In this document: positions 24,409-28,266 of the stretch, piece by piece
How positions within the stretch are numbered: the stretch's first letter is position 1
How the letters are laid out: the number at the start of each line of letters is the position of its first letter
Assembly: GCA_017882465.1 (NCBI GenBank)
Contig: JADGPN010000012.1
Location: 1-34,650 of the forward strand
Length of the DNA: 34,650 nucleotides
Direction: 5' to 3'
Source: Solirubrobacteraceae bacterium
Lineage (GTDB): Bacteria > Actinomycetota > Thermoleophilia > Solirubrobacterales > Solirubrobacteraceae
Program-made: the position numbers and the translations under genes
Notes under the pieces: model-generated
Seen by the model: the letters and a program-made list of their open reading frames with translations, nothing else
Databases searched by the model: none
Told to the model about the DNA's origin: nothing

Positions 24409-24978
24409 ATGGCGAGTTCAGTACCACCAGCGCCATCGTGGTCCGCGCCGCTCTCAGAGCACCGGCGGCGCGGGCGTGAGGTTGGCCGGGTGCTCGTCTT
24501 GAACGCGACGTATGAGCCGATCAACGTCTGCACCGTGCGCCGCGCCGTCGTCCTGCTGCTCAAGGAGAAGGCCGAGGTCCTCGAGCACGCCGAGTGGGAG
24601 CTGCACTCCGCCACGAGCTCGATGTCCCGCCCGATGGTGATCCGCCTGGTCAGCTACGTCCGCATCCCTCGTGACACACACCGGCGCAAGATCACCCGCC
24701 GGGCCGTGTTCGCTCGCGACAACTGGACCTGCCAGTACTGCGGCGCACACTCCAACCTGACCGTCGACCACGTGATCCCCCGCTCCAAGGGCGGCGTCTC
24801 GAGTTGGGACAACATCGTCGCGTCCTGCGCGCCTTGCAACCGGCGCAAGGGCAACGCCCTGCCACGCCAAGCGGGCATGCAGCTGCTGACCCAGCCGCGC
24901 ACGCCGAGCCAGCACGTGTTCATCCAGGTCGCCAGCCCGACGATCCCCGCGGCCTGGCGCCAGTACCTGGCCGCCTGA
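24409..24978 (+). CDS. HNH endonuclease family protein
   Basis: VLVLNATYEPINVCTVRRAVVLLLKEKAEVLE ... RDNWTCQYCGAHSNLTVDHVIPRSKGGVSSWDNIVASCAPCNRRKGN. A later in-frame GTG start near 24490 is possible. Confidence 0.92.
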   Translation: MASSVPPAPSWSAPLSEHRRRGREVGRVLVLNATYEPINVCTVRRAVVLLLKEKAEVLEHAEWELHSATSSMSRPMVIRLVSYVRIPRDTHRRKITRRAVFARDNWTCQYCGAHSNLTVDHVIPRSKGGVSSWDNIVASCAPCNRRKGNALPRQAGMQLLTQPRTPSQHVFIQVASPTIPAAWRQYLAA

Positions 24979-25032: not shown

Positions 25033-27798
25033 TCAGCCGATGTCGATCGTCGGGCGACTGCGCCCCGGGACCTTGCTCGGAGGCAGGATGCTCAGATCTC
25101 CCGGATACGAGCGGACCCAGCCGGTGGCGGCGTACCAGTCGAGCCGGTTCAGCTGCGCCGGGTTCGCCTGATCCTCGGCCGGATGAGCGCCGCCAAATCG
25201 CTGGTGGGCGCTCCATGCGACCCACTGCCGGTACACCCCGATCTCCCTCGCCGGGATGTGGAGGACCGACTTGACCCGGGCGATATCCGCTTTGGCTGGG
25301 ACGTTGACGCCCAGAGTCAGCGGCACCCGGTTGGGCAACACGTCGAACGGAGCGAAGCTGGCGCGGTCGGTGAACGCGCCGAACATCGGCTCCGCCGCCC
25401 GGTCCTCCTGATTCATCGGCGGGATGCCCAGGATCTGCTCGATCGTCCTGACCACGTTGATCTGGGTGTAGTAGTGGTGATCGACCACACTGCGCTTCGC
25501 ATACGGGCTGGCGACCAGGATCGTGCTGCGGTGCCCGTCCACGTGATCGACACCGTTCTGCGGGTCGTCCTCGACGACGAAGATCGCCGAGTCCTTCCAG
25601 AACCGGCTGTGGGTGATGTCCGAGATGATCCGGCCGGTGGCCAAGTCGTTATCGGCAACCTGCGCGGTCGGGTACGGGTCGCCTGAGTTCAGCCCCGAGG
25701 TGTGATCGTCGGGAACCCACAGCAGGTTCAGGTTCGACAGGTTGCCGCTCTCCTCCGAGGCCTTGAAGGACCGCTCCCAGATATCGGTCCGGTACTGGTC
25801 GGGCACATCGAGGTCGAACCTCGGGTAGGCCCCGGCGAGGATCGCGTTCAGCGACGGGATGTCCGAATAGGTCCGATACGCGTCGATCGGCACCGGCAGC
25901 GGCCCGCGGGCCTTGCCCTCGAGGATCTGCGAGTCCTTGTACCACTGGGCCCAGGTGGGAGCGCCGGTGGCCGGGATGCTGAAGAAGTTCGCGTACTCGC
26001 CGAAGGCCGAGGCGGTCTTGCCGGCATGGGCGGCGGCGTTCCACAGGAACCCGTCCCGCTGGTAGGCGAGCGCGTCGCCGCCCTGGGCGGGATAGGAGCG
26101 GATGAAGGCCCCGAACTCCTTCTCGATGTAGTCGTTGGCATCGGCCTGCACCAGCCAGTTGTGGCCGTCGGCCGACAGCGTCCCGACGTCGTAGAAGTTG
26201 TCGAACAGCCCGAAGCGGTTCGCCAACGCGTGCTGATTCGGGGTGATCTTGTCGCCGAACTGAGCCAGGCTCGGGCTGCCGTTGCCCTTCGCGATGTCGC
26301 CGAAGACCTGGTCGTAGGTGCGGTTCTCCTTCACGAGCAGGAACACGTGCTTGATCTTCGACCGCTGGCCGAGACGGGCTGGGATCGGCGCCGGCGCGGT
26401 CTGCGTGTCCGCGGGCAGCGGGGGTAGACGGTTCCAGGCGTTGTTCTCGAACACCTGACGCGTGTAGCCGCCCAGAGCGCTGTCCGGGGGCGCGGCGAAC
26501 GTCGTCACCGAGCCGGTGTCGTCATAGGTGTTGTGGCCCGTGGCCCCATGGGTACCGGGGCCCTTCTCGATCGTCGAGGCGGGCCCGCGGGCTCCGATCC
26601 CCTTGTCGTTGGTCACCACGACCCTGCCGAGCGCCTGATCCATGGTCACGTTGACCGGATACCAGTCGGTGGGCAGCAGTCCCTGCAGCTGCACCGGCGA
26701 CGTGGGATCCTCGTAGCGATACTGGGCCAGGGCGTTGTCGCGGCCGATGCTGACGAGGATGTGATGGGCGTCGGGCATCGTGATCGCGTTCGGGTAGCTG
26801 CCCACCTTGGCCCCGGGCACCGGATTGACGTTGAACGTCTGCGTGACCTGCTGCTTGGCGGTGTCGATGATCGACACGCTGTCGTCGTTGGAATTGGCCA
26901 CGAACAGAGCCTTGTCGTGCAGATACAAGGCGGTCGGCTGGAGGCCGACCGGAATCGTCCCCACCTGCGCGCCCTTGGCCAGGCCCACGACCGACACCGT
27001 GCCCGTGTTCGCGGCTCCGGTCGACTTGTCGGAGACGATCGGCGTGCCGTCGGAGAGGTTGGTGAACTCACCGCCCGTCGCCGGGCGGCCGCCCTCGTTG
27101 GAGACGAAGGCCTGATCGCCGCTGATCACGACCTGGCGCGGCGCGTTACCGACCGGGATCTCGCTCAGCAGCTTGTTCGAGCTGGTGTCGATGACCCCGA
27201 GCGTGTTGTTCCCGTTCAGGGCGACGTAGAGCTTCGAGCCGTCGGCGGAGAGCGCCATCCCGGACGGGAGCGCATCGCCGTTCGGCCCTGAGAGCGGAAT
27301 CACCGTCGGTGACGAGACCGTCCCGTCGGCGGCGACGACGAAGCGCACGATGTCGGCAGACTGCGGGAACCACAGCGTCTTTCCATCAGCCGAATAGAGC
27401 GGCCCGTCGGGGCTGACCGTCCCGTCCCCGATCACGGGATCGCCCGTGCTGCCGGTGCCAACCTGCTGAACGGCCTTGCCGCTGCCCAGGTCGACGATCG
27501 ACAGGAAGCCGGTGAAGTTCTCCCAGGAGAGCGCCGCGACGTGCTTGCCGTCGGGGCTCACGGTGCTTCCGGTGATGCGGCCGTTGGTGACCAGTATGCG
27601 GTCGCCCACGGGCGAGATCCACTGGTTGGACGGGAGCAGGATGCGGTTGCCGAGCTGCTGACCGACCTGATCGTTCCCGAACGGCCCGATCCCGGCCGCG
27701 GCGGCCACTCCCACCGTCGCTGCGCACCCGAGCGCGCCGGTGGCGAGCACCGCGCCGGCCCGCGATCGCGTGAGTCTTATCGAGCGCCTTGTCTTCAT
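25033..27798 (-). CDS. Secreted YncE/YVTN beta-propeller fused to alkaline phosphatase-like phosphoesterase
   Basis: ATG 27798 with GGGAGG upstream; signal peptide; repeated propeller motifs (LPSGMALSADGSKLYVALNGNNTLGVIDTSSNKL); KIKHVFLLVKENRTYDQVFGDI, NHFGLFDNFYDVGTLSADGHNWLVQA-like region, FVVEDDPQNGVDHVDGHRSTILVASPYAK. Confidence 0.92.
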   Translation of the reverse strand: MKTRRSIRLTRSRAGAVLATGALGCAATVGVAAAAGIGPFGNDQVGQQLGNRILLPSNQWISPVGDRILVTNGRITGSTVSPDGKHVAALSWENFTGFLSIVDLGSGKAVQQVGTGSTGDPVIGDGTVSPDGPLYSADGKTLWFPQSADIVRFVVAADGTVSSPTVIPLSGPNGDALPSGMALSADGSKLYVALNGNNTLGVIDTSSNKLLSEIPVGNAPRQVVISGDQAFVSNEGGRPATGGEFTNLSDGTPIVSDKSTGAANTGTVSVVGLAKGAQVGTIPVGLQPTALYLHDKALFVANSNDDSVSIIDTAKQQVTQTFNVNPVPGAKVGSYPNAITMPDAHHILVSIGRDNALAQYRYEDPTSPVQLQGLLPTDWYPVNVTMDQALGRVVVTNDKGIGARGPASTIEKGPGTHGATGHNTYDDTGSVTTFAAPPDSALGGYTRQVFENNAWNRLPPLPADTQTAPAPIPARLGQRSKIKHVFLLVKENRTYDQVFGDIAKGNGSPSLAQFGDKITPNQHALANRFGLFDNFYDVGTLSADGHNWLVQADANDYIEKEFGAFIRSYPAQGGDALAYQRDGFLWNAAAHAGKTASAFGEYANFFSIPATGAPTWAQWYKDSQILEGKARGPLPVPIDAYRTYSDIPSLNAILAGAYPRFDLDVPDQYRTDIWERSFKASEESGNLSNLNLLWVPDDHTSGLNSGDPYPTAQVADNDLATGRIISDITHSRFWKDSAIFVVEDDPQNGVDHVDGHRSTILVASPYAKRSVVDHHYYTQINVVRTIEQILGIPPMNQEDRAAEPMFGAFTDRASFAPFDVLPNRVPLTLGVNVPAKADIARVKSVLHIPAREIGVYRQWVAWSAHQRFGGAHPAEDQANPAQLNRLDWYAATGWVRSYPGDLSILPPSKVPGRSRPTIDIG

Positions 27799-28015
27799 AG
27801 GTCCCTCCCCAGATTTTTGGATAGCTGAAGTCACCACCCGCGCGAGGCAGGTGGTGCACGCAATTGCTGCTACCGGCGTCGCTCGGCGGTCGAGCGGCGG
27901 TGAGGCATCCCCATCCGGCCCGCGACACGCTACGACCAGGACTCGGGAGCCGTGTGTTCATCTGGTGGCCGCGGTGTGACCTGTCAGCGGTCGGACTCGG
28001 CGCGTCCTTAACGGG

Positions 28016-28046
28016 CGAAGGGCGCCCTCGACGTGGGCGCCCTTCG
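28016..28046 (-). terminator. Strong hairpin ending the candidate small transcription unit downstream of gyrA
   Basis: Perfect 12-bp inverted repeat CGAAGGGCGCCC / GGGCGCCCTTCG with 7-nt loop; no clear U-tract. Confidence 0.6.
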
Positions 28047-28160
28047 CGGACATCTGGCTGCTTTCCGGGGCGGACTTGGTACGTACCGGAGGGACTAATC
28101 CCGGCGCCCACCACCGACGGTGTCTCGGGGGGACTCCGCTAAGCGGGGTCAGCCTCCGAC

Positions 28161-28205
28161 CTAGCGGCCGGACACCTCCAGGGTCCCGCAAGAACTGTCA
28201 GACAA
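28161..28205 (-). CDS. Candidate 14-aa peptide MSDSSCGTLEVSGR (TTG start)
   Basis: TTG TCT GAC AGT TCT TGC GGG ACC CTG GAG GTG TCC GGC CGC TAG, preceded by AGAAAGGAGGTGGTCC. Confidence 0.45.
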   Translation of the reverse strand: MSDSSCGTLEVSGR

Positions 28206-28209
28206 TGTC

Positions 28210-28225
28210 GGACCACCTCCTTTCT
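28210..28225 (-). promoter_or_regulatory. Extended Shine-Dalgarno: AGAAAGGAGGTGGTCC
   Basis: Plus strand GGACCACCTCCTTTCT differs by one base from the canonical 16S rRNA 3' end GGATCACCTCCTTTCT; the change gives a G-U pair in the duplex. Confidence 0.7.
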
Positions 28226-28237
28226 CTGGTATCTCGC

Positions 28238-28266
28238 AGAGTAGCGAACGCGGCGGGCGGTTTAAA
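28238..28266 (-). promoter_or_regulatory. Promoter-like element TTTAAA-N17-TACTCT
   Basis: TTTAAA at 28266..28261, 17-nt spacer, TACTCT at 28243..28238; about 7 nt to a TSS near 28231. Confidence 0.45.

Follow-up and report, generated by a model that had tools for sequence, protein, structure and literature searches.

In attenuator leaders such as trpL, translation of a short open reading frame (ORF) competes with RNA structure, and the small RNAs (sRNAs) SgrS/SgrT and RNAIII are also translated, their peptides being functional. Similarly, the cysteine-rich upstream ORFs of mycobacteria set translation of a short ORF against RNA structure (PMC4633059). The described family that comes closest to the RNA considered here is Ms_IGR-5 (RF02471), filed by Rfam as an sRNA whose function is unknown. 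Homologues of Ms_IGR-5 carry published ribosome footprints in M. abscessus and M. smegmatis (PMC4974804), and independent transcripts have been described in S. avermitilis (PMC8780764) and S. lividans (PMC8079986); our literature searches yielded no function, no name for the mycobacterial locus, and no sRNA complementary to the anti-Shine–Dalgarno (anti-SD) sequence in Actinobacteria. Here we describe a distant homologue of Ms_IGR-5 in a stretch of 34,650 nucleotides (nt), hereafter the window, from a Solirubrobacteraceae bacterium (assembly GCA_017882465.1, contig JADGPN010000012.1, positions 1 to 34,650). Unlike trpL and the cysteine-rich upstream ORFs, it has neither a downstream target gene nor a diagnostic codon cluster, and, unlike in SgrS/SgrT and RNAIII, its peptide is apparently not functional, whereas the ORF itself forms tertiary structure. 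Reasoning from sequence, we read it, at somewhat under an even chance, as a regulatory RNA that stands free, is translated, can be either folded or occupied by ribosomes but not both, and is read via the act of translation. Its linear features in the window are as follows.

28016..28230, minus strand: the whole RNA (about 215 nt), with inferred ends at the conserved ACCAGAG start and at the close of the terminal hairpin
28210..28225, minus strand: extended Shine–Dalgarno (SD) sequence SD1, AGAAAGGAGGTGGTCC, nearly invariant in homologues
28161..28205, minus strand: mini-ORF of 14 codons, TTG to TAG, encoding MSDSSCGTLEVSGR and a stop, with the TTG 10 nt after GGAGG
28173..28181, minus strand: internal SD-like motif SD2, CTGGAGGTG, whose spacing to the stop is kept in homologues
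28238..28243, minus strand: −10 promoter element TACTCT (TAnnnT), kept at the same distance in relatives
28261-28266, minus strand: −35-like TTTAAA, 17 nt from TACTCT

SD1 forms 15 Watson–Crick pairs and one G–U pair with the 16S ribosomal RNA tail GGAUCACCUCCUUUCU; this complement covers the full tail including the mature 3′ end (16 nt), and the computed energy of the duplex is −27.8 kcal/mol vs −12.2 kcal/mol for bare AGGAGG. The 16S tail GGATCACCTCCTTTCT was read in four relatives, and the window's own assembly contains no 16S copy matching it at ≤1 mismatch. The RNA as a whole folds with an energy of −104.5 kcal/mol (z −2.9, better than 200 dinucleotide shuffles) and ends in a perfect 12-bp hairpin (28046-28035 / 28027-28016, minus strand); a search for tRNA and tmRNA found none. 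Thus, the anti-SD complement, the TTG spacing, the 14-codon ORF, the terminal hairpin, and TTTAAA-N17-TACTCT, all noted in a preliminary description of this DNA, are confirmed base for base. As a promoter, the last of these stands in part: the −10 TAnnnT is conserved in relatives, and TTTAAA, which fits a −35, is not. The conserved block of the RNA begins in relatives at about position 28230. In the copies of Streptomyces, Mycobacterium and Nocardioides (e.g., L108, L159, L165), the −35 element is an A-tract followed by TTG and the −10 element is TAnnnT, an arrangement reminiscent of strong stable-RNA promoters; this −35 type occurs in many members outside the window's class and was not seen in the window's genus.

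Homologues of the RNA were found by BLASTN in 54 out of 61 genomes of the window's genus, family and order (best E-value in another genome, 8e-67), so it is not the orphan it was first taken for. On a wider scale, an exact pattern combining the shared motifs (AAGGAGGTGNTCC, 12–32 nt, GGACNNNNGAGGTG) matched at least 120 stretches, with less than one match expected by chance according to a rough estimate; the 80 listed matches come, with two exceptions, from Actinomycetota, among them Streptomyces, Mycobacterium, Acidimicrobiia and Solirubrobacterales. Among 397 sampled genomes, 55 contain the pattern, in a single copy, and none its reversed control; viral contigs gave no match to the pattern. 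R1, a covariance model based on the window's relatives, matches at least 66 out of 198 sampled Actinomycetota genomes (58 out of 146 genera), almost always in a single copy. The two exceptions among the listed matches belong to metagenome-assembled genomes of Acidobacteriota (L139, 6505-6552, minus strand; 89 bits with R1) and Spirochaetia (L149, 1232-1278, minus strand; 34 bits), and may be due to misbinning or transfer.

An Rfam search at the gathering threshold returned nothing, and the window copy scores 20 bits (E = 0.021) against RF02471, below the gathering cut-off of 45 bits. At the same time, RF02471 matches loci homologous to the window RNA in two genomes (G035, E = 8e-7, and G041, E = 0.002), of which the window-family homologue in G035 (L048) reaches 37.8 bits (E = 4.8e-6), and reciprocally R1 recovers the RF02471 loci in Mycobacterium and Streptomyces. 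Taking the intermediates and the reciprocal model together with the sub-threshold score, the window RNA is a distant homologue of Ms_IGR-5 and not a member by the Rfam rule, which corrects the earlier remark that it could not be matched to a named family. We regard this homology, and the conservation of the ORF discussed below, as practically certain. The two groups share the order of their parts: an extended SD, a short ORF, GGAC followed by GAGGTG and the stop, a CACC strand as the partner in helix P1 (below), and a hairpin with GUCC in the loop. In the Rfam consensus, however, the SD is paired with GCUGCC, the CACC strand is unpaired, and the structure line contains no pseudoknot, whereas the covariation observed here supports GGUGNC/GNCACC and a pseudoknot. 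In both groups the GGUG(G)CUGC-type strand appears to have a better partner in the downstream GCAGNCACC / GACACC. We also considered the Caulobacter sRNA CC2171 (RF01867), in which an extended SD, GAAAGGAGGUGAUCC, likewise precedes a hairpin. Its match (21.4 bits vs a cut-off of 75) is at the background level, as other places in the genome score 21.1 and 21.0 bits, and hence reflects the shared SD and not homology.

The ORF is kept almost without exception. In 159 out of 160 distinct sequences a start codon 6–13 nt past GGAGG shares its frame with GAG GTG, and no stop intervenes, vs 8 and 18 sequences for the other two frames by the same criterion, and a stop codon (TAG, TGA or TAA) follows exactly five codons past the GAG codon in 154 out of 154. 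The starts are TTG, CTG, ATG, GTG, ATC and ATT (nearly all TTG, CTG, ATC or ATT within the family and order of the window), and the ORF length varies from 10 to 16 codons. In the window, the GGAGG of SD2 ends 11 nt short of the stop and 8 nt short of the last sense codon, the latter distance being a normal spacing from SD to P-site. The N-terminal codons tell a different story from the reading frame: in nearest-neighbor pairs, differences are spread almost equally over the codon positions (75/82/71) and all three frames have similar synonymous counts, hence no selection on the N-terminal amino acids is visible. The residues invariant in the pattern set, T-x-E-V, map to the GGAC and GAGGTG motifs of the RNA. 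Moreover, members from other families of the window's class (L251-L256) read through the motif in a different frame, GGA GGT (e.g., LHSTSGGGSS, ending in GGGSS-stop vs LEVSGR-stop), with the internal SD 10 nt before the stop vs 11 nt elsewhere, and one sequence from outside this class (L266) uses the same alternative frame, likewise keeping the internal SD at about 10 nt from the stop. The conserved features are the start, the frame, the stop and the distance from the internal SD to it, and not the peptide beyond what the RNA motifs dictate.

The second line of evidence is the fold, in which the same codons take part.

28168..28176, minus strand: 5′ strand of helix P1, GGTGTCCGG (ORF codons 10–13), pairing with 28119-28128
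28119..28128, minus strand: 3′ strand of P1, CCGAGACACC, with covariation
28162..28167, minus strand: 5′ strand of helix P2, CCGCTA, extending into the stop codon, with compensatory changes
28136..28141, minus strand: 3′ strand of P2, TAGCGG, pairing with CCGCTA
28085..28105, minus strand: hairpin P3 with GUCCC in the loop and compensatory changes at all five stem pairs
28182..28187, minus strand: 5′ strand of pseudoknot PK1, GGGACC, within the ORF, with flanks that covary phylum-wide
28091..28095, minus strand: 3′ strand of PK1, GTCCC, in the P3 loop, partner of GGGAC of the ORF
28015..28048, minus strand: terminal hairpin P4, with compensatory changes at eight out of 11 counted pairs
28148..28154, minus strand: 5′ strand of a possible second long-range pairing, GGCTGAC, with the partner CAGCC at 28056-28060
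28056..28060, minus strand: 3′ strand of this pairing, CAGCC, partner of GGCTGAC

In an alignment of 39 sequences, 95.1% of the cells at the proposed pairs are standard, and compensatory changes occur at 19 pairs, vs 6.9 in shuffles and 5–11 when the pairing is slid. Columns 85 and 153 of P1 show several standard pair types; in Streptomyces and Mycobacterium this helix is GGTGGCTGC/GCAGTCACC, and its general form is GGUGNC of the ORF with GNCACC. An example of compensation in P2 is CCGTTA/TAACGG in L046; large insertions in the P2 apical loop of L051, where the unit GGCGGAACGTTGTCCCGCCGAGCACCGACCC is repeated, and of L044 suggest that this loop tolerates expansion. The GUCC-loop hairpin is present in 140 out of 160 sequences (46 expected), and an outer helix of at least 8 bp surrounds P3 in 66 out of 135 (10 in shuffles). 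The possible second long-range pairing, GGCTGAC/CAGCC, covaries weakly, with 87–92% of cells paired. P4 is probably a terminator; no U-tract follows it.

For PK1, the pairs flanking GGAC/GUCC are Watson–Crick in 91 out of 134 sequences (47 expected) on one side and in 78 out of 134 (38 expected) on the other, and no shuffle equals either value. Since these shuffles ignore relatedness, changes in the core itself weigh more, and the core is indeed replaced in divergent families by GTGACC/GGTCAC, AGACC/GGTCT and TCGACC/GGTCGA. Compared with the loops of other families, five out of 11 non-GGAC cases stand at 10/194 or better (3–10 of 194), and the others fall short of this level. A generic shuffle test, on the 20 loci obtained independently of the pattern, gave a weak signal (16 vs 9.8 expected). 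RNAalifold proposed a different partner for GGACC of the ORF, namely GGUCC in the tail of the SD; possible in the window, it is ruled out as a universal pairing, as 19 out of 20 sequences with the SD tail AUCC or UUCC keep the GUCC-loop hairpin. A switch between this pairing and PK1 is conceivable where both exist.

Under the reading of a free-standing translated RNA, a 30S subunit would dock on the extended SD and initiate, slowly where the start is UUG, CUG, AUC or AUU. The translating ribosome would melt PK1, P1 and P2 and linger at the stop codon, the internal SD being at the ideal distance of 8 nt for re-pairing with the anti-SD; as it melts the three elements and stays at the stop, the ribosome-bound and folded forms would be mutually exclusive. 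The RNA would thereby report initiation-competent small subunits and, when highly abundant, buffer them, its output being its own stability or accessibility together with competition for the anti-SD, and the peptide a by-product. The preliminary description had proposed a self-standing, structured, ribosome-binding RNA of about 215 nt, and the conservation, the covariation, the conserved −10 and the unrelated, often convergent downstream genes all argue for it; its further suggestion that translation of the ORF controls the RNA that follows is borne out anatomically, in that the ORF codons and stop form the 5′ strands of two helices and the pseudoknot. A bolder version, which we hold to be doubtful if conceivable, is a phylum-wide, peptide-independent "ribosome gauge," in which initiating subunits would be captured by the full anti-SD pairing, the ORF would be a dummy that ends at a second SD positioned to re-pair with the anti-SD at the stop, and the pseudoknot would be toggled by ribosome passage. 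Leaderless and leadered mRNAs are common in Actinomycetota, and such a gauge would tune the free 30S supply or the balance between the two.

Several observations weigh against the reading of a translated RNA. No trans target or phenotype is on record for the RNA, and the published ribosome footprints could reflect passive binding. Slow initiation is not universal, because some members start with an ordinary AUG or GUG. As for the fold, several core compensations in PK1 are individually no rarer than chance, and its GGAC/GUCC pairing was not detected in the L251-L256 group. Finally, the invariance of GGAC and GAGGTG in the pattern set is partly a matter of ascertainment, since the pattern fixed both; the BLAST, Rfam and R1 matches, chosen without GAGGTG, nearly all carry that motif.

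Among the alternatives, the strongest is a conventional base-pairing sRNA that in fact targets other mRNAs, with the ORF and the SD secondary. It agrees with the filing of Ms_IGR-5 by Rfam, with the independent transcript and with the conserved loops; however, the 16S tail is matched by the most conserved unpaired stretch, covariation gives the GUCC loop a partner within the same RNA, and the ORF is nearly always retained, so that we deem it unlikely. The match to 16S would also suit an untranslated decoy, regulating or titrating 30S subunits or pre-16S ends by SD pairing alone, and the 16-nt complement to the full tail, reaching the mature 3′ end, speaks for it; selection on the start codon, frame and stop makes it rather improbable. 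That selection could instead point to a micropeptide gene with the 14-residue peptide as the functional product, as the preliminary description had offered among its readings. The conservation of the ORF, MSDSS-like N-termini in several families and the invariant T-x-E-V favor it, whereas the unbiased N-terminal codons, the overlap of the invariant residues with GGAC and GAGGTG, and the families ending in GGGSS in another frame leave it with little probability.

A role as leader or attenuator for the gene downstream would account for a leader-peptide-like ORF overlapping alternative pairings, and in the window the next gene lies about 218 nt past the terminal hairpin and is co-directional. However, this hairpin separates the RNA from the gene, and no conserved co-directional target emerged: among 169 loci, the downstream gene is convergent in 102 and co-directional in 67, with no common gene family. 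Such varied and often convergent neighbors indicate a stand-alone gene, and we consider a leader very improbable. Coincidental features in a gyrA 3′ untranslated region or terminator can be dismissed almost entirely: the RNA follows the gyrA stop by about 110 nt in the window, but it has its own conserved −10 and is conserved where gyrA is absent nearby, as in most other families.

With regard to the neighboring genes, the upstream gene in the window is gyrA, preceded by gyrB, as identified by Pfam in agreement with the initial assignment. It occupies this place in many of the window's relatives without being a constant partner; in mycobacteria the upstream gene is pabC-like, judging by its protein sequence, and others are found elsewhere. 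The next gene downstream in the window (25033-27798, minus strand) encodes an apparently secreted protein of 921 amino acids with beta-propeller and phosphoesterase matches, and an HNH endonuclease gene (24409-24978, plus strand) lies near the RNA. The second-largest cluster of genes neighboring the RNA in related genomes (31 members, upstream or downstream) likewise looks HNH-like by sequence reading.

Ms_IGR-5, until now an sRNA without a function, thus gains an anatomy consisting of an extended SD, a dummy ORF, a second SD at the stop and a pseudoknot built from codons, and its range is widened to actinobacterial lineages below the Rfam threshold. As far as the comparison of sequences goes, the pattern of conservation suggests that selection acts on translation itself and not on the peptide. 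Streptomyces and M. smegmatis, both model hosts, carry a copy, so that the mechanism can be tested there by simple mutations. If true, an RNA regulator that lacks a cis target and keeps its ORF only as a track for the ribosome would represent a new kind.
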